Of a DNA stretch of 64,000 bases, positions 31,127 through 62,856 are shown one piece after another. Positions within the stretch are counted from its first letter, which is position 1; the number at the start of each line of letters is the position of its first letter. A program made the translations under genes and the position numbers. Source of the stretch: Weissella bombi (GTDB taxonomy: Bacteria > Bacillota > Bacilli > Lactobacillales > Lactobacillaceae); NCBI RefSeq assembly GCF_900094835.1, contig NZ_FMAO01000003.1, positions 62,001 through 126,000 on the forward strand. Direction: 5' to 3'. The notes under the pieces are model-generated. The model was given only the letters and a program-made list of their open reading frames with translations, was not told the DNA's origin and did not search any database.

Positions 31127-31356
31127 AAACAAAAAATCCTAGTTTACACATCTATCGTATAAACTAGGAACTGATTAGTCTTTAGTATTGTCGATAGCTC
31201 TCCGCGACCGACTATTTTTGTCGCGACAGTCTGCCCATTATTCATGTACACACCAACAATGATTACTGTCATAACCATCATTTCGGCAATCGCCCCTTTT
31301 ATCTAACATCCTAACTTACCAGCTCCGTTAAACGACTTTTGTTGATTGCAACCTCT
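31127..31356 (-). ncRNA. Lysine riboswitch (L-box) with terminator, upstream of lysP
   Basis: The minus strand shows the L-box landmarks in order: AGAGGTTGCAATCAA (from 31356), GGAGCTGG, AAAGGGGCGATTGCCGAA, GGGCAGACTGTC and GGAGAGCTATC, over about 180 bases. An intrinsic terminator follows (9-bp stem 31137-31145 with 31161-31169, then T6). Bound lysine is expected to favour the terminator and shut off lysP. Confidence 0.93.
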
Positions 31357-31380
31357 ATGTATTATTTAATTTCGAAACTA

Positions 31381-36211: not shown

Positions 36212-36480
36212 AAAAAAGCCCTCAAGCAATTACATGAATTGCTTGAGGACGATTAATCGTGGTTCCACCTCAGTTTAGCTAATTATTACTAATTAGCACT
36301 CTAATCCCTTATGTAGCATCAAAAGGGATTCATGGATAACGTCATGACACGGGAACTATTAGGCTCCGATAATCTTGGGTGTGGTTCATCTAATATTTTG
36401 GTTACTTCTCAGCTTCAGCGTAACTCTCTAAACAAAATAGTTAGACTACTCTTCCAATCAAATCTTTTTATAATTACTGT
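36212..36480 (-). ncRNA. T-box leader of the amino-acid ABC operon
   Basis: Minus strand: T-box core GAGGTGGAACCACG (near 36258-36271) directly before a terminator (12-bp stem 36220-36231 with 36237-36248, then T6). A long stem I is visible, with AGAGTAG at its base and the AGAGAG bulge. After the upper helix the specifier loop reads TGAACCACACC; CAC (36381-36383, followed by A) would be histidine, ACC threonine. Histidine is my preference, with modest confidence. Confidence 0.88.
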
Positions 36481-42006: not shown

Positions 42007-42375
42007 TTATAGTAACCACGTACCGACACAAGTTCCAAACCACAAAACAACCAAGCCACCGACAAATGTCAACAATGTTTTAACCAACAATAATCGTTTG
42101 TCACCTGTATGCTTTTGAATTGCATCTGCAATATCGACAATCGGTGCCGAAAATGTTGACAATCCACCTAAAATACCAGGTGCTAAAAATGTATGCAGCC
42201 ATTCCGGTGCAACCATAACCAAAGTCATCCCCATAAAAAACGCTGCCAATAAATTGATAACGACAACCATTAATTCAGATAAATTACCAAACCAACGGGG
42301 TGCAACCGTCAACAATCCAAAACGAATTAATGATCCTATTACGGCCCCAATACCTGTTAAAATTATTTCTGCCAT
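42007..42375 (-). CDS. crcB: Fluoride channel FluC/CrcB, subunit 2
   Basis: 122 residues, four membrane helices. Family motif region GGLSTFSAPIVDI and GAVIGSLIRFGL. Exports fluoride. Together with the next gene it forms the paired small-channel arrangement common in Firmicutes; the two genes overlap by 13 bp. Confidence 0.92.
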   Translation of the reverse strand: MAEIILTGIGAVIGSLIRFGLLTVAPRWFGNLSELMVVVINLLAAFFMGMTLVMVAPEWLHTFLAPGILGGLSTFSAPIVDIADAIQKHTGDKRLLLVKTLLTFVGGLVVLWFGTCVGTWLL

Positions 42376-42752
42376 CTCAATACCAGCTTATTTCCTAGAT
42401 AACGACTCAAAATTACCATCAACACACCACCTACAACACTAATAACAATATAAATCAGCGCCATTAATACTGACAAATGTACCATATCTGATAACGCCGT
42501 TGAATACGTCGTATACGCACCCAAAATACCAACCATAATAAAATCAGAAGTTACTTGCTTCAGGTTTACAATTTTACTAAACAAAACAACTAGTAATGCT
42601 GAAACAAACGTACCACTCAAATTGACAATAACGGTTTCCCAAGGAAATGCATTGTTGTGAAACAACATCATCATACTTGCTCGTAATGCACCACCTATAA
42701 AGCCACCACTACCAACTGCTAAAATTTCTAACAATAATTGTTTTCTACTCAT
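42363..42752 (-). CDS. crcB: Fluoride channel FluC/CrcB, subunit 1
   Basis: 129 residues, four membrane helices, with GSGGFIGGALRA and the GAYTTYSTALSD motif. Likely assembles with its partner as a dual-topology fluoride channel. It starts 12 bp after the ABC ATPase gene, so it seems co-transcribed with the transporter. No fluoride riboswitch lies in front. Confidence 0.92.
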   Translation of the reverse strand: MSRKQLLLEILAVGSGGFIGGALRASMMMLFHNNAFPWETVIVNLSGTFVSALLVVLFSKIVNLKQVTSDFIMVGILGAYTTYSTALSDMVHLSVLMALIYIVISVVGGVLMVILSRYLGNKLVLRWQK

Positions 42753-42764
42753 ATCACATACCTA

Positions 42765-43535
42765 TTAATAACGGTTGAAATAATTTAATAAATCGGTAAC
42801 CGTCAATTTTTTCTTTTCTTCACCACTAACATCTAATGAAATTTTACCTTCTGACATAATGATCAATCGATTACCATATTCAATTGCATCTTCTAAATGA
42901 TGCGTAATCATCAATGCTGTTAGTTTTTCTTCGTGAATGCGTCGATCTGATACCTGCATCAATTGCGTACTAGTTTTGGGATCTAATGCCGCAGTATGCT
43001 CATCTAACAATAAAACTTCTGGACGTAGCTGCGTTGCCATCAAAAATGACAAAGCCTGTCGTTGCCCACCAGATAAATCACCAGCAGCCATGTCTAAGCG
43101 ATCTGATAAACCATTTCCCATCGTAGCCGTTACTTTGGCATATTCCGCTCTCTTAGCTTCAGTTAAGCCACGATTTTTTAATCGACGGCGCAATCCACGG
43201 CGTTCAGCCAATAACATGTTCTCTACAACTGTCATCCGAGGTGCCGTGCCCAGTTTAGGATCCTGAAAAACACGCGCTAAAAACTTTGTTCGTTGTGCTT
43301 CATTCAAATGTGTCACATCATGTTCACCTAAAAAAAGGCTACCACTCGTTAATGGTAATGATCCAGCGATAACATTAAATAACGTTGACTTTCCTGCCCC
43401 ATTCGATCCTAAAACTGTCACAAAATCTTCCGGCATTAATGTTAATGACACATCATCTAAAATTGTCTTCTCACCTGGTTGTCCCTGATTAACAATGACA
43501 GTTGCATGATCTAATCTTAATTTTGTCTCTACCAT
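42765..43535 (-). CDS. ABC transporter ATPase (TrpXYZ family)
   Basis: 256 residues: Walker A GSNGAGKST, signature LSGGQRQALSFL, Walker B VLLLDEHTAALD (His where Pro is usual), switch MITHHL. ATPase of a three-gene uptake system with the next two genes; 6 bp from the permease gene. Confidence 0.9.
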   Translation of the reverse strand: MVETKLRLDHATVIVNQGQPGEKTILDDVSLTLMPEDFVTVLGSNGAGKSTLFNVIAGSLPLTSGSLFLGEHDVTHLNEAQRTKFLARVFQDPKLGTAPRMTVVENMLLAERRGLRRRLKNRGLTEAKRAEYAKVTATMGNGLSDRLDMAAGDLSGGQRQALSFLMATQLRPEVLLLDEHTAALDPKTSTQLMQVSDRRIHEEKLTALMITHHLEDAIEYGNRLIIMSEGKISLDVSGEEKKKLTVTDLLNYFNRY

Positions 43536-43541
43536 ATTCCA

Positions 43542-44429
43542 TCATCCTCGCTTTAAAAACGTACTCAACCGTAACTTTGAGCGTAATCTAGGTAACATAA
43601 GTGCCAATCCAAGAATAATAGCACTAACTAACTTCAAGTCATCAGCATTAAAGCCAATGTACAAGACAATTACTAATACAAAGCGATAGAAAATTGAACC
43701 AATAATAATTGTAATCAAACGTTCAGGTAAGGTTAGTGTATCAGTAAAAATCACCTCACCAATAATAATTGAAGCAAGGGCGACCACAATAGTACCAACC
43801 CCCATATTAACGTCCGCAAAACCATTATTTTGTGCAACCAACGCGCCACCAAGTCCAATTAGTCCATTAGCTACCATCAACCCTAAAATTGTCATACTAT
43901 CAGTATTGATTCCTAAAGACCTTGCCATTTTAGGATTATCACCCGTTACAATAAATGCTTGCCCCAATTCTGTCTTTAAAAACTGTGCTAAACAAATTGT
44001 AATTAAAATTATAATGACAACACCAACAACAATGACTGGAAAGTTTTGTGGTAATCCCTTCAAAAAATTATATGAAAATAAATTTGTCTTTCCTAATAAA
44101 GAACGATTAGCTTGACCCATGATACGTAAATTAACCGAATAAACTGCAGTCATGGTTAAAATACCTGCTAATAAAATTGGAATTTTTCCTTTAGTATATA
44201 GCAAACCAGTAACCAATCCTGCTAGGCTTCCTGCTAAAGTTGCTACTAACGTTGCAATAATTGGCGACATACCATTTGAAATTAAAGTTACTGCAGTTGC
44301 AGCCCCTAGTGGAAACGTCCCTTCAACGGTCATATCCGCAACATCCAAAATTCGAAAAGTTAGATATAATCCAAATCCCAAGGTTGCCCAGATTAAGCCC
44401 TGACCAATGGCTGATATTAAAATACCCAT
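43542..44429 (-). CDS. ABC transporter permease (TrpXYZ family)
   Basis: 295 residues with about eight membrane helices, of the branched-chain-like permease group (BPD_transp_2); opening GLIWATLGFGLYLTFRILDVADMTVEGTFPLGAA is characteristic of the family seen with PF04392-type binding proteins. Confidence 0.9.
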   Translation of the reverse strand: MGILISAIGQGLIWATLGFGLYLTFRILDVADMTVEGTFPLGAATAVTLISNGMSPIIATLVATLAGSLAGLVTGLLYTKGKIPILLAGILTMTAVYSVNLRIMGQANRSLLGKTNLFSYNFLKGLPQNFPVIVVGVVIIILITICLAQFLKTELGQAFIVTGDNPKMARSLGINTDSMTILGLMVANGLIGLGGALVAQNNGFADVNMGVGTIVVALASIIIGEVIFTDTLTLPERLITIIIGSIFYRFVLVIVLYIGFNADDLKLVSAIILGLALMLPRLRSKLRLSTFLKRG

Positions 44430-44436
44430 AATTGCC

Positions 44437-45423
44437 TCACTTTACAAATTTTGCTTGATTATATTCTTTTGGTAACGTCAATCCAAGACGTGATAATTGC
44501 GCCTTATTCACCACCAAGTCGCCCTTTTTGATAAAGCCAACTGGAATATCTTTCGGTTGTTTACCATCTAAAATTCTAGCAACTTGTTTACCAGTTTGAA
44601 CACCTAACTTCTTTTGATTAATTGATTCAGCAGCTAAGCCACCATCTTTTACCATCGTGTCAACAGTTGGAAATACAGGTACACCGGCAGCATTTGTACT
44701 ATCGATCAACGTTGGCATCGCCCCGGCAATCGTATTATCAGTAGGTACAAAAACTGCGTCAACTTGACTATTAGCAACCATTTGTTTAGCTGTTTGATTT
44801 AAATCGTTCGAAGAAGAAATCGTATAAGGTTTAACTTGCAAACCAGCTTTTTTAGCTAAATTCATCATTTGTTTAGCTTGAATTGATGCCGAATCATCTG
44901 AAGAAGTATAGATTACGCCTAAATTCTTCAAATTAGGTACAAATTTTTTCATCATCTTTAATTGAGCGGCTAGTGGGGCCTGATCCGACACACCAGTAAC
45001 ATTACCACCTGGGTGGTTATAACTTTTTACTAACTTTGATTGAATTGGTGTCGTTGATGCCGCAAAAACAACAGCCTTGTCAGTAATTGTATTTGCCAAA
45101 GATACAGCTGCTGGCGTAGCTATTCCAACCGAAACATCAGCATTAGCATTTTCAAATTTAGAAGCCATCGTCTTTAAATTAGACTGATCACCTTGTGCAT
45201 TTTCATACATTATTTTAACGTTCTTACCTTCGTGATACCCTGCCTGCGATAAGCCTTCATAAATACCTTTATTAATATCATCTAATGCTGGATGCTTCAT
45301 AAATTGTAAAATTGCCACTTTAGGCATCGCTTTATGCTGACTTGTTTGAACTGACTCATGTACACCTGCAAATACTGTGAAAAGGGTTAATACACCAATT
45401 GTGCCCCATATTTTTTTATTCAT
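44437..45423 (-). CDS. trpX: ABC transporter substrate-binding protein, probable tryptophan (TrpX type)
   Basis: 328 residues with an N-terminal hydrophobic export/anchor segment (about 4-22), no lipobox Cys. Belongs to the ABC_sub_bind family (PF04392): KVAILQFMKHPALDDINKGIYEGLSQAGYHEGKNVKI, then IGIATPAAVSLAN and FVPTDNTIAGAMPTL. Relatives in Lactobacillales are predicted tryptophan (or other aromatic) binders, usually inferred from Trp T-boxes. Here the leader is not a recognisable T-box, so substrate is less certain. Confidence 0.8.
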   Translation of the reverse strand: MNKKIWGTIGVLTLFTVFAGVHESVQTSQHKAMPKVAILQFMKHPALDDINKGIYEGLSQAGYHEGKNVKIMYENAQGDQSNLKTMASKFENANADVSVGIATPAAVSLANTITDKAVVFAASTTPIQSKLVKSYNHPGGNVTGVSDQAPLAAQLKMMKKFVPNLKNLGVIYTSSDDSASIQAKQMMNLAKKAGLQVKPYTISSSNDLNQTAKQMVANSQVDAVFVPTDNTIAGAMPTLIDSTNAAGVPVFPTVDTMVKDGGLAAESINQKKLGVQTGKQVARILDGKQPKDIPVGFIKKGDLVVNKAQLSRLGLTLPKEYNQAKFVK

Positions 45424-45697
45424 TTACCTATCCTCGACTATTGTTATACAAAATAAAAAACACGAGCAGACACAACAGCATCTTCTCGTGTTTCACATGA
45501 AAAGAACTGCACGATAAGTCATGCAACCCTTTCCAATTATTTCGGAAATTAGTTAGCACAGACTCAATACATCTGCTCCCAAAGGAACTACGTACTGAAT
45601 CTATGTTTTGCCATAGTTCGTACGCACTATCTGCGCCACCAACCATTAAATTTTAAAACAAAATTACTCATAACTAATTACCACCTTGTATATCATT
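45424..45697 (-). ncRNA. Unassigned structured leader RNA of the trpX operon
   Basis: About 270 bases between a good promoter and trpX. In the minus-strand RNA I can draw: (a) an outer helix GGCGCAGA/TCTGTGC; (b) inside it a 15-bp hairpin (45589-45626) with a GCAAAA loop and two bulged A on its 3' arm; (c) GTTCC/GGAGC; (d) TTTCC/GGAAA; (e) TGCATGA/TCGTGCA; then (f) a terminator with 9-bp stem (45458-45466 with 45485-45493) and T6. No T-box core, SAM, lysine, TPP, purine or fluoride signature was found. The architecture suggests transcription attenuation by a ligand or factor I cannot name. Confidence 0.7.
45455..45493 (-). terminator. Attenuator terminator in front of trpX
   Basis: Stem AACACGAG/CTCGTGTT with extra pairing inside, followed by T6 on the minus strand, about 30 bases before the trpX start. 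Its position makes it a leader terminator controlled by the structure above. Confidence 0.85.
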
Positions 45698-45703
45698 TTC
45701 ATA

Positions 45704-45732
45704 ATAATAGCACTTTGCTCTCACTTATGCAA
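45704..45732 (-). promoter_or_regulatory. Promoter of the trpX leader
   Basis: TTGCAT (45727-45732) and TATTAT (45704-45709) on the minus strand with 17-bp spacing. The -35 ends three bases past the nrdF stop codon, so nrdF has no terminator of its own and its transcript should run into the leader. Confidence 0.75.
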
Positions 45733-61383: not shown

Positions 61384-62856
61384 TTAGGCCTCCTTTCCGT
61401 TAGCGAAGGCTTCAGGTGAAAATGGATCAACATTTTCATCTGATACAACCTCATCAACTGATTCAGGACCCGCAATCATAACACGACGTGCAAGCATAAT
61501 CATAATCAATCCCAAAACTAAGAACGTTACAAAGTACAAAATGTTTGAAGTTAACAATGATGTTACTGAAACATTTGGTGACACTGCATCGGCCATTGTA
61601 AGAACACCATACACAACCCATGGTGCACGACCAAGCTCAGTAATCAACCAACCAGATGTAATCGCAACATAAGGTAGGAATGTTGATAATCCAAATATCC
61701 AAAGAACCCACTTGTACTTTGAAATATCAATTTTTGACTTTTTACGTACTGCCCATAAAGCAACTAATGCAAGGAATCCAAATGCTCCTGCAGAAACCGC
61801 CATGATACGGAAACTATAGTAAAGTGTATTATTTGGCAAATAATAATTCATATCGTGACCAAACTTAACATCATACTTTTCATGTAATTCTTTATTTAAT
61901 TCATGCCAACCTTGACTACCACCCACTAATGAATGGTGTGCCAAAATTGATAACATATAAGGAACGTCTAATGACCACTTAACCTCATGGGTTTGTGGAT
62001 CACTAACGGCGATAACTGACCATGGTGCTTGTTTATCATCACCACCGACATTCTTATCAAGCGCTTCAGTTGCAGCGAACTTCATTGGTTGATCGTCTTG
62101 TAAGTATAATGAATGACGATCACCAGTGTATAGCAATCCAACTGTTCCAACCAAAGCAACAATCGCTCCTACCTTAACTGACTTCTTAAAAAAGTCTAAT
62201 TCGTGGTTCGGACGACGCAACAATGACCAAGCTGAAACACCAATTACAGCAAAAGAACCGGCCATAAACGTTGCAAAGATGACGTGTGGGAATTCCAACC
62301 ATAGTTGGTGGTTCTGTAGCAAAGCTGGGAAATCAACCAACACAGCACGGTCGAACTTGTGATCAACCTTAAATCCAACTGGATTTTGCATAAATGAGTT
62401 AGCAGCTAAGATCCATAGTGCTGAAAAAGCAGAACCCAAAGTTGTTAACCAAATAAATACTAGATGGAGTTTCTTATTAAAGCGATCCCATCCAAATGAC
62501 CATAATCCCAAAAATGTTGATTCCAAAAAGAACGCTACTAACGCTTCAACAGCCAAAGCTGGCCCGAAGATATCCCCCACATAACGTGAATATCTAGACC
62601 AATTCATACCAAATTGGAACTCTTGAATGATTCCCGTTACAACTCCAACCGCAAAACTGAGCATAAAGATTTTACCCCAGAATTTGGTCATACGTTTATA
62701 CTGATCATCCTTTTTTATAACATACAAGGTTTCCATTATCGCAACAATAATACCTAAACCAATTGACAACGGTACGAAGAAAAAATGAAAAATCGTTGTC
62801 ATTGCGAACTGAAAGCGTGCAAGGTTCAAAATGGATAGACCTGCTACCAAGTTCAT
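61384..62856 (-). CDS. cydA: Cytochrome bd oxidase subunit I
   Basis: 490 residues. Oxidises quinol and reduces oxygen to water. Early heme His in TTIFHFFFVPLSIGLG, GRPW-type loop region SRYVGDIFGPALAVEALVAFFLEST, and Q-loop of the short form (E. coli CydA is 522). In lactic acid bacteria the enzyme works when heme (and often menaquinone) is supplied from outside. Upstream there is a possible Rex half-site. Confidence 0.96.
   Translation of the reverse strand: MNLVAGLSILNLARFQFAMTTIFHFFFVPLSIGLGIIVAIMETLYVIKKDDQYKRMTKFWGKIFMLSFAVGVVTGIIQEFQFGMNWSRYSRYVGDIFGPALAVEALVAFFLESTFLGLWSFGWDRFNKKLHLVFIWLTTLGSAFSALWILAANSFMQNPVGFKVDHKFDRAVLVDFPALLQNHQLWLEFPHVIFATFMAGSFAVIGVSAWSLLRRPNHELDFFKKSVKVGAIVALVGTVGLLYTGDRHSLYLQDDQPMKFAATEALDKNVGGDDKQAPWSVIAVSDPQTHEVKWSLDVPYMLSILAHHSLVGGSQGWHELNKELHEKYDVKFGHDMNYYLPNNTLYYSFRIMAVSAGAFGFLALVALWAVRKKSKIDISKYKWVLWIFGLSTFLPYVAITSGWLITELGRAPWVVYGVLTMADAVSPNVSVTSLLTSNILYFVTFLVLGLIMIMLARRVMIAGPESVDEVVSDENVDPFSPEAFANGKEA

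Follow-up and report, generated by a model that had tools for sequence, protein, structure and literature searches.

We propose that the leader RNA of the trpX gene of Weissella bombi is probably a ribosome-mediated leader-peptide transcription attenuator, which would sense charged tRNA-Trp and control the trpXYZ importer. This leader is located on the minus strand of the window (the whole stretch of 64,000 nucleotides that was analysed, positions 62,001 to 126,000 of contig NZ_FMAO01000003.1), with nrdF on one side and trpX on the other; all coordinates given for the window refer to features of its minus strand. As judged from sequence comparisons, the leader harbours a conserved short open reading frame (ORF) with a Shine-Dalgarno (SD) sequence and two Trp codons near its stop, followed by segments that make covarying and mutually exclusive helices and, at its end, by terminators. 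From these elements we infer the stalling of the ribosome and the order of folding. The leader is not a T-box, probably not a riboswitch, and most plausibly a Gram-positive leader-peptide attenuator of unusual architecture.

The gene following the leader (44437-45423) encodes the tryptophan ABC transporter substrate-binding protein TrpX, as assigned with the NCBIfam equivalog model NF041285 (425.7 bits, for a cut-off of 390). Most of TrpX can be aligned with 3LFT (E 1.1e-70), a protein from pneumococcus for which the accessible part of PMC9382623 shows tryptophan as the ligand. The closest named relatives of TrpX, among the matches listed, are those of Weissella sagaensis and W. hellenica (90%). 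The permease (43542-44429; Pfam BPD_transp_2) and the ATPase (42765-43535; Pfam ABC_tran) encoded next to it presumably belong to the same transporter. Two CrcB fluoride-channel genes (42007-42752; Pfam CRCB in both), which are outside the sensing element, are possibly co-transcribed with trpXYZ. CrcB was found at 15 of 80 named trpX loci (the best 80 of 418), 13 of the 14 listed being from Weissella; crcB is therefore not tied to the leader.

The promoter, as read from the sequence (45704-45732), comprises a -35 box TTGCAT (45732-45727), a 17-nt spacer and a -10 box TATTAT (45709-45704). It matches the consensus at 8 of 12 positions only, 8 being the best site score of the window, and it is absent from the output of an automated promoter scan of the window. 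Its position and spacing are common in relatives: 88 of 103 related leaders have a match of at least 9/12 in that stretch (36% in shuffles), with the 17-bp spacing in 69 of these 88. The leader of about 270 nt folds at -93.3 kcal/mol, as compared to -58.7 kcal/mol for shuffles (z = -7.78), and none of the 200 shuffles equalled it. Both the promoter with its 17-bp spacing and the strong structure had been noticed in the first-pass annotation of this DNA, which also described the leader as unassigned. In an Rfam scan of the window, which did detect a T-box leader (36242-36470; 99.4 bits, above the Rfam cut-off) and a lysine riboswitch (31187-31365; 101 bits) at other sites, no family reached its gathering score over the leader. 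The best match there at E<=10 was the enterobacterial Trp_leader family RF00513, with 17.8 bits for a gathering score of 41 (E 0.58, not significant). Both the T-box and the enterobacterial Trp_leader identities were rejected on these covariance-model scores.

A very diverged tryptophan T-box would agree with two facts. First, Streptococcus suis takes up tryptophan with a system that includes TrpX and is induced via a T-box when Trp is low and, according to the available sections of PMC9382623, the T-box-controlled trpXYZ of S. suis and S. pneumoniae is a homologous operon with the same expected signal and direction of response as here. Second, T-boxes are matched 23 times in the genome of the window, 12 times above the cut-off. 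Yet this explanation has practically no probability, since the T-box model RF00230 has no match at the leader at E<=10, in the type of scan that finds the T-box at 36242-36470, and since, in a search of the best 80 named loci with simple patterns, the region ahead of trpX contained no strict T-box core string (one loose string occurs, at L065). With 23 T-box matches in its genome, trpX appears as an exception to a sensor that is often used there and that was available; the window leader, which would be an attenuator, differs from the streptococcal ones by its sensor.

Concerning the leader ORF, the description of about 270 untranslated bases in the first-pass annotation is probably wrong, as this account of a leader without coding content missed a conserved reading frame of 14 codons plus a TAG stop (45627-45671), which encodes MSNFVLKFNGWWRR and ends with TGG TGG CGC AGA TAG. 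The SD-like AAGGTGG (45681-45687) is separated from the ATG by a 9-nt spacer, and the tandem Trp codons 11 and 12 (TGG TGG, 45636-45641) are invariant in all 23 distinct leaders of the genus. Leader DNA was found in 20 of the 28 genus genomes and a trpX match in all 28. We examined 30 trpX-like loci of the genus (L023-L052) of the 33 places listed, and found the leader ORF at 26 of them, i.e. ahead of 26 of the 27 intact trpX genes in the 28 genomes. All 26 ORFs have a purine-rich SD-like stretch ahead of the ATG, an ATG yielding 14 codons, and a WWRx-stop end. The uniform length rests partly on the choice of the ATG, the 14-codon one being favoured by the script while five leaders (L033, L036, L039, L042 and L046) have a second in-frame ATG; the WWRx-stop end is independent of that choice. 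The four loci without leader ORF are the orthologue L041, L050 (a fragmented assembly, whose genome has another leader copy, L012, that does contain the ORF) and two paralogues of about 45% identity. The alignment of the 23 distinct leaders has no gaps across the ORF, and 16 of its 22 invariant columns fall inside the ORF, including the ATG and both Trp codons; most of the peptides contain LNxWWR. The covariance model R1, built from these 23 leaders so that its matches within the genus are partly by construction, strongly matches 27 of the 28 genomes, the last one having a terminator-like fragment only. Among the intact trpX genes of the genus, the one exception that lacks the leader ORF, L041 of genome G020, has a different upstream gene and a terminator-like hairpin in between. 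A 72-codon ORF of the window (45428-45646) was discarded as a protein: it has no Pfam match, is in another frame and overlies the hairpins.

Downstream of the ORF, the segments form helices that are mutually exclusive. The r1 segment (45612-45626) begins directly after the stop codon and pairs with r2 (45589-45605), which can alternatively pair with r3 (45557-45572). The 3' part of r3 also enters the antiterminator hairpin (45515-45566), made of 45566-45542 and 45536-45515 with 21 pairs in a constrained fold of the window. The R segment (45543-45555) either pairs with the SD/start region of the leader ORF (45683-45671) or enters the antiterminator. The antiterminator competes with terminator 1 (45501-45532; arms T5, 45532-45519, and T3, 45514-45501), which has a poor U tract (UUCUUUUC), whereas terminator 2 (45450-45494) has a better, U-rich tract. 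A second antiterminator (45476-45509) can be formed by T3 plus the U tract (45509-45495) with the 5' arm of terminator 2 (T2a, 45491-45476). A simple terminator scan of the window returned 0 sites and so found neither terminator. By a simple rule applied to 100 leaders, terminator 1 was recognised in 57, of which 21 also showed terminator 2.

To evaluate these pairings, the duplex energy of each leader's own strands was compared with that of strands exchanged between species of the genus that are less than 80% identical, relatedness being controlled by this identity cut only. The own pairings were stronger than the swapped ones for r1:r2 (-15.1 versus -10.6 kcal/mol), r2:r3 (-18.1 versus -14.4), SD:R (-9.9 versus -6.5), R:T5 (-10.9 versus -9.3; -7.8 versus -6.9 for a shorter version) and T5:T3 (-19.9 versus -11.9). 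The pairing of the ORF end with r3 (ORFend:r3) is weaker in the genus (-9.2 versus -7.9 kcal/mol) and lies outside the usual register in 9 of the 23 leaders, while SD:R is weak in 2. The eight control pairings (SD:T5, r1:r3, SD:r3, r1:R, r2:R, r1:T5, ORFend:T5 and r3:T3) showed gaps of at most 0.7 kcal/mol in either direction. An antiterminator made of r3 and the 3' arm of terminator 1 was rejected, as it had no excess over swaps (-5.8 versus -6.2). For T3:T2a, the values were -12.4 versus -7.7 kcal/mol in the genus (n=9) and -10.7 versus -7.0 in others (n=12), in sets that are small and partly related (the 9 from the genus include 6 close relatives).

The covariation score and the number of double-change cells of r1:r2, r2:r3, the antiterminator, terminator 1 and SD:R exceeded those of all 500 shuffles, and slid versions of these five helices scored lower, a comparison which favours the counted structures since they were derived from the same sequences. 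Two further counts are less clear: the number of pairs with double changes was reached by 61 of the 500 shuffles for the antiterminator, 34 for terminator 1 and 144 for SD:R, and that of further pair types by 200 for r1:r2, 140 for the antiterminator, 73 for terminator 1 and 454 for SD:R.

As T3 and the 5' arm of terminator 2 are complementary, the segments can chain in the order r1-r2-r3-T5-T3-T2a-T2b, where each pairs with one neighbour or the other, giving two registers, one without any terminator and one with both. Thus, the leader possesses the elements of an attenuator, namely a short ORF with SD and Trp regulatory codons, and an antiterminator and an intrinsic terminator that are mutually exclusive by complementarity and covariation, with predicted activity. 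Several items of the first-pass annotation find their place in this chain: its 15-bp hairpin with two bulged A (45589-45626) is identical to r1:r2, its intrinsic terminator ahead of trpX turns out to be two tandem hairpins (45532-45501 and 45494-45450), and the conservation and covariation in related genomes on which it had made its interpretation depend are both present. What stands of that interpretation is a structured, conserved, covarying and unassigned attenuator with no recognisable T-box, whereas the diverged T-box falls with the lack of a T-box match, even at E<=10, and the new ligand-sensing leader gives way to the ribosome, which the conserved ORF with its SD and Trp codons indicates as the sensor.

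We propose that the position of the ribosome fixes the pairing register of this seven-segment relay. At low Trp, the ribosome stalled at codon 11 or 12 would cover the ORF end and leave most of r1 exposed; r1 would then occupy r2, so that r3 would be available for the 5' arm of terminator 1 (the r3:T5 antiterminator), and the released 3' arm of terminator 1 would join the 5' arm of terminator 2, thereby enabling RNA polymerase to read through. The ON set would thus comprise r1:r2, r3:T5 and T3:T2a. With ample Trp, the ribosome would reach the stop codon and mask r1, so that r2:r3 and T5:T3 would form and transcription would stop at terminator 1 or 2 (the OFF set being r2:r3, terminator 1 and terminator 2). 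Without translation, the ORF end or start would pair with r3/R and block the antiterminator, making OFF the default; this is the least certain step. The expected signal and sign would be as in S. suis trpXYZ, with a different sensor.

Folding checks were performed with masked ribosome positions, the better of the two codons being taken in all leaders with two Trp codons, which favours the attenuator reading. Over 100 leaders folded without constraint, placing the ribosome at Trp gave the antiterminator more pairs than placing it at the stop in 63 cases, and more than leaving it out in 55 (the opposite of the prediction in 2), while that of the window itself barely responds to ribosome position (11.8, 11.3 and 11.3 pairs). 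At equilibrium, whatever the state of the ribosome, the loss of terminator 1 carries a mean penalty of 16-18 kcal/mol (91 of 100 leaders), with values of 8 to 24 kcal/mol among the 23 genus leaders. Since terminator 1 is favoured in every state, the control must be kinetic. When r1:r2 was kept, the antiterminator pairs with the ribosome at Trp versus at the stop numbered 14.6 versus 3.3 in the genus (contrast in 22 of 23 leaders), 10.7 versus 1.7 outside it (69 of 77) and 20.0 versus 11.3 in the window, i.e. a contrast in 91 of 100 leaders overall, which is conditional on r1:r2, partly built in, and to be read as a consistency check. As compared to no ribosome, the contrast was observed in 50 of 100 leaders (opposite in 4). 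In the control with the ribosome masked at codon 3 and r1:r2 kept, the antiterminator had 10.6 pairs in the genus, against 14.6 at Trp, and 10.3 elsewhere, close to the 10.7 at Trp. The folds can thus distinguish a ribosome that has reached the stop from one held further upstream, whether or not this hold is at Trp; stalling specifically at Trp is proposed because of the conserved Trp codons and the tryptophan genes behind them.

In the trp leader of E. coli, the peptide has tandem Trp codons followed by Arg, as here, and a ribosome stalled at them permits the 2:3 hairpin to form as the antiterminator. The enterobacterial leader (RF00513) shares with the present one a short peptide with tandem Trp codons, overlapping hairpins and a terminator. 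It differs in that the window leader has more segments, two coupled terminators and the opposite parity (r1:r2, not 2:3, goes with ON), in addition to scoring below the RF00513 gathering score. A classic four-segment attenuator with r2:r3 as the antiterminator, for which the WWR-type peptide and the overlapping r1:r2 and r2:r3 hairpins would speak, is unlikely for the following reasons. First, r2:r3 has no strand in common with terminator 1. Second, the competitor for T5 is r3/R, which makes r2:r3 an anti-antiterminator. Third, the Trp codons are located upstream of r1 and not inside it. Moreover, the WW of the genus grades into W and WxxW in relatives, which suggests that the resemblance to the enterobacterial leader is a case of convergence. 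Another similar system is found in the histidine attenuators of Firmicutes (PMC2965389, PMC9413887), where leader-peptide attenuation also takes the place of T-boxes in Gram-positive bacteria, though for histidine and in other lineages; the accessible parts of these two papers contain no tryptophan case in Firmicutes that we could find.

Outside the genus, the scan of named genomes with the TrpX alignment (best 80 of 418 loci) showed a Trp-codon leader ORF at 72 of 80 trpX loci, where 12.6 were expected by the same fixed rule in dinucleotide shuffles; among the 8 loci failing the rule, L090 has an ORF just beyond the scanned stretch. WW peptides also occur, among these best 80 loci, in Periweissella (2) and Paucilactobacillus (2), and most remaining loci (other Lactobacillaceae, Desemzia, Gemella) have a single Trp codon followed by Gln, as in LNIRWQSR-stop and INRWQFQH-stop. 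Single Trp codons occur in 46 of 92 distinct leaders. The peptides vary in length (11-28), in their N-terminal part and in the distance from Trp to the stop (4-10 codons), while 6 of the 10 invariant columns in other genera correspond to the Trp codon and the next one. This next codon, in the 92 distinct leaders (L053-L162), is CAA in 68 and never CAG, which may reflect codon bias (CAA versus CAG is 103 to 5 elsewhere in these ORFs).

These peptides bear on the possibility that the nascent chain, in the exit tunnel, senses free tryptophan rather than tRNA charging, as does TnaC. The conserved residues beside Trp (the LNxWWR of most leaders in the genus, and a Gln that follows the first Trp in 68 of the 92 distinct leaders) and the half of the leaders having one Trp codon only would be in line with such an arrest. 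We nevertheless consider it improbable, given the variability in peptide length, N-terminal part and Trp-to-stop distance, and given that pairing with r3 explains much of the conserved 3' end. Furthermore, expression rises with high Trp in TnaC-type systems, which is the wrong sign for an importer.

The relay proposed for the attenuator would not be restricted to Weissella. Of 82 distinct non-genus leaders, 77 (five rows ending before T5 were dropped; swaps below 70% identity) showed the same pairing network, with own versus swapped energies of -14.5 versus -8.5 kcal/mol for r1:r2, -17.4 versus -11.1 for r2:r3, -13.6 versus -10.4 for ORFend:r3, -15.7 versus -11.9 for r3:T5 and -14.2 versus -8.5 for T5:T3, the shuffled means of the T3 pairings being an artefact of rows without T3. 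Eight control pairings ranged between -0.8 and +0.5; two of them, r1:T3 and r2:T3, beat the permutation (0 and 2 of 2000) by 0.7-0.8 kcal/mol, a small signal for which rows without T3 may account.

These leaders meet the trpB motif, RF04312, for which >900 representatives are reported and whose most frequent downstream neighbour is an uncharacterised ABC transporter (PMC11109978, accessible part). RF04312 was detected at gathering level in 2 of 18 such trpX loci and below it in 4 of 8 loci, with 48.5 and 43.6 bits for two from Paucilactobacillus with a WW peptide. At E<=0.001 it occurs in 113 of 198 genomes of the order (above the cut-off in 41). In a draw from the phylum, 3 of 348 genomes had a match, one of them from the order, and the matches outside the order (L163, L164) have contexts that look unrelated. 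We examined the 30 loci returned for high-scoring matches of the order search, and found at all of them a Trp-codon ORF starting at most 130 nt upstream of the model (1.2 expected in shuffles), with peptides often ending in WQNWRR or WQSWRR. The genes 3' of these loci encode a TrpX relative in 24 cases, TrpB in 3 and neither in 3.

The trpB motif was published as a strong riboswitch candidate (PMC11109978, in its available sections), with its antiterminator in the right shoulder of P1, a classic attenuator being still held possible; in the same sections we found no mention of a leader ORF. The likeness with the window element extends to the location ahead of trpX/trpB-type genes in Lactobacillales, the correspondence of P1 with r2:r3 and of P2 with terminator 1, and the antiterminator in the right shoulder of P1. 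By contrast, the window element fails the Rfam model, its ORF has a tandem WW and SD:R partly replaces ORFend:r3. A metabolite-binding riboswitch, with P1 (r2:r3) as the aptamer and P2 (terminator 1) as the expression platform, would fit this published grading and the complex structure with covariation. It is very unlikely, more so than the nascent-chain sensor, in view of the following lines of evidence. First, conservation is scant outside the ORF, which contains 16 of the 22 invariant columns in the genus. Second, most invariant columns in other genera (6 of 10) are the Trp codon and the next codon. Third, a Trp-codon ORF stands ahead of all 30 RF04312 loci examined. Fourth, the 3' end of the ORF is itself a pairing partner of r3.

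The relationship between the attenuator of the window and RF04312 escapes the Rfam model: with its gathering cut-off of 59 bits, RF04312 has no match to the window leader, even at E<=10, and none at E<=0.001 in the four genus genomes listed in the order search, including the window's own. It was recovered in both directions with our own models. The model R2, built from 29 leaders outside Weissella and Periweissella and searched over 255 kb, detects the window leader at 35.5 bits (E 1.4e-5; best non-leader match, E 0.01), and places 12 of the 19 genus leaders above the best non-leader match and 7 below. Conversely, searches with the genus model R1 recover 13 of the 17 non-genus leaders at E<1e-4 (best match elsewhere, 0.07). 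From these cross-family matches, the window element would most simply be a diverged branch of the RF04312-containing family, though under the Rfam cut-off. Attenuators of this design, whose peptides have either a single Trp codon (W) or two (WxxW, WW), would operate ahead of trpX or trpB in many Lactobacillales. On balance, we lean towards the view that the whole of RF04312, together with undetected relatives of the Weissella type, is one family of Trp leader-peptide attenuators, where a register-shift relay of up to seven segments would govern two tandem terminators, often with a single Trp codon.

The class of mechanism is known. Within the literature searched, three points appear to be new: its use for tryptophan in Lactobacillales, the placing of RF04312 in this class, and the coupling of the segments into a relay. 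In this search, which covered a minority of the subscription journals, we found no paper on a Trp leader peptide before trpX or in the trpB motif, and no second paper using the term trpB motif. RF04312, an orphan strong riboswitch candidate, thereby gains a testable non-riboswitch mechanism and a candidate signal (charged tRNA-Trp). Our analysis also indicates that Lactobacillales, some of which are rich in T-boxes, use leader-peptide attenuation for tryptophan, and it describes a coupled double terminator, an architecture of possible use in engineering.

Some loci of the wider family deserve separate mention. L136 and L155 (around 1420-1620, on the element's strand) have WQNW leader peptides, but their downstream flanks contain no ORF of 70 codons on the same strand; these trpB-type attenuators are perhaps orphan elements or remnants. 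In L133, the first ORF behind the attenuator (from about 1610) resembles, by eye, a group II intron reverse transcriptase. Finally, RF02863 (Enterococcus sRNA 2410) overlaps, below its cut-off, the RF04312 match at L118 (3211-3404) and at L158 (1466-1617), and this small RNA may correspond to the short transcript left when such a leader terminates.
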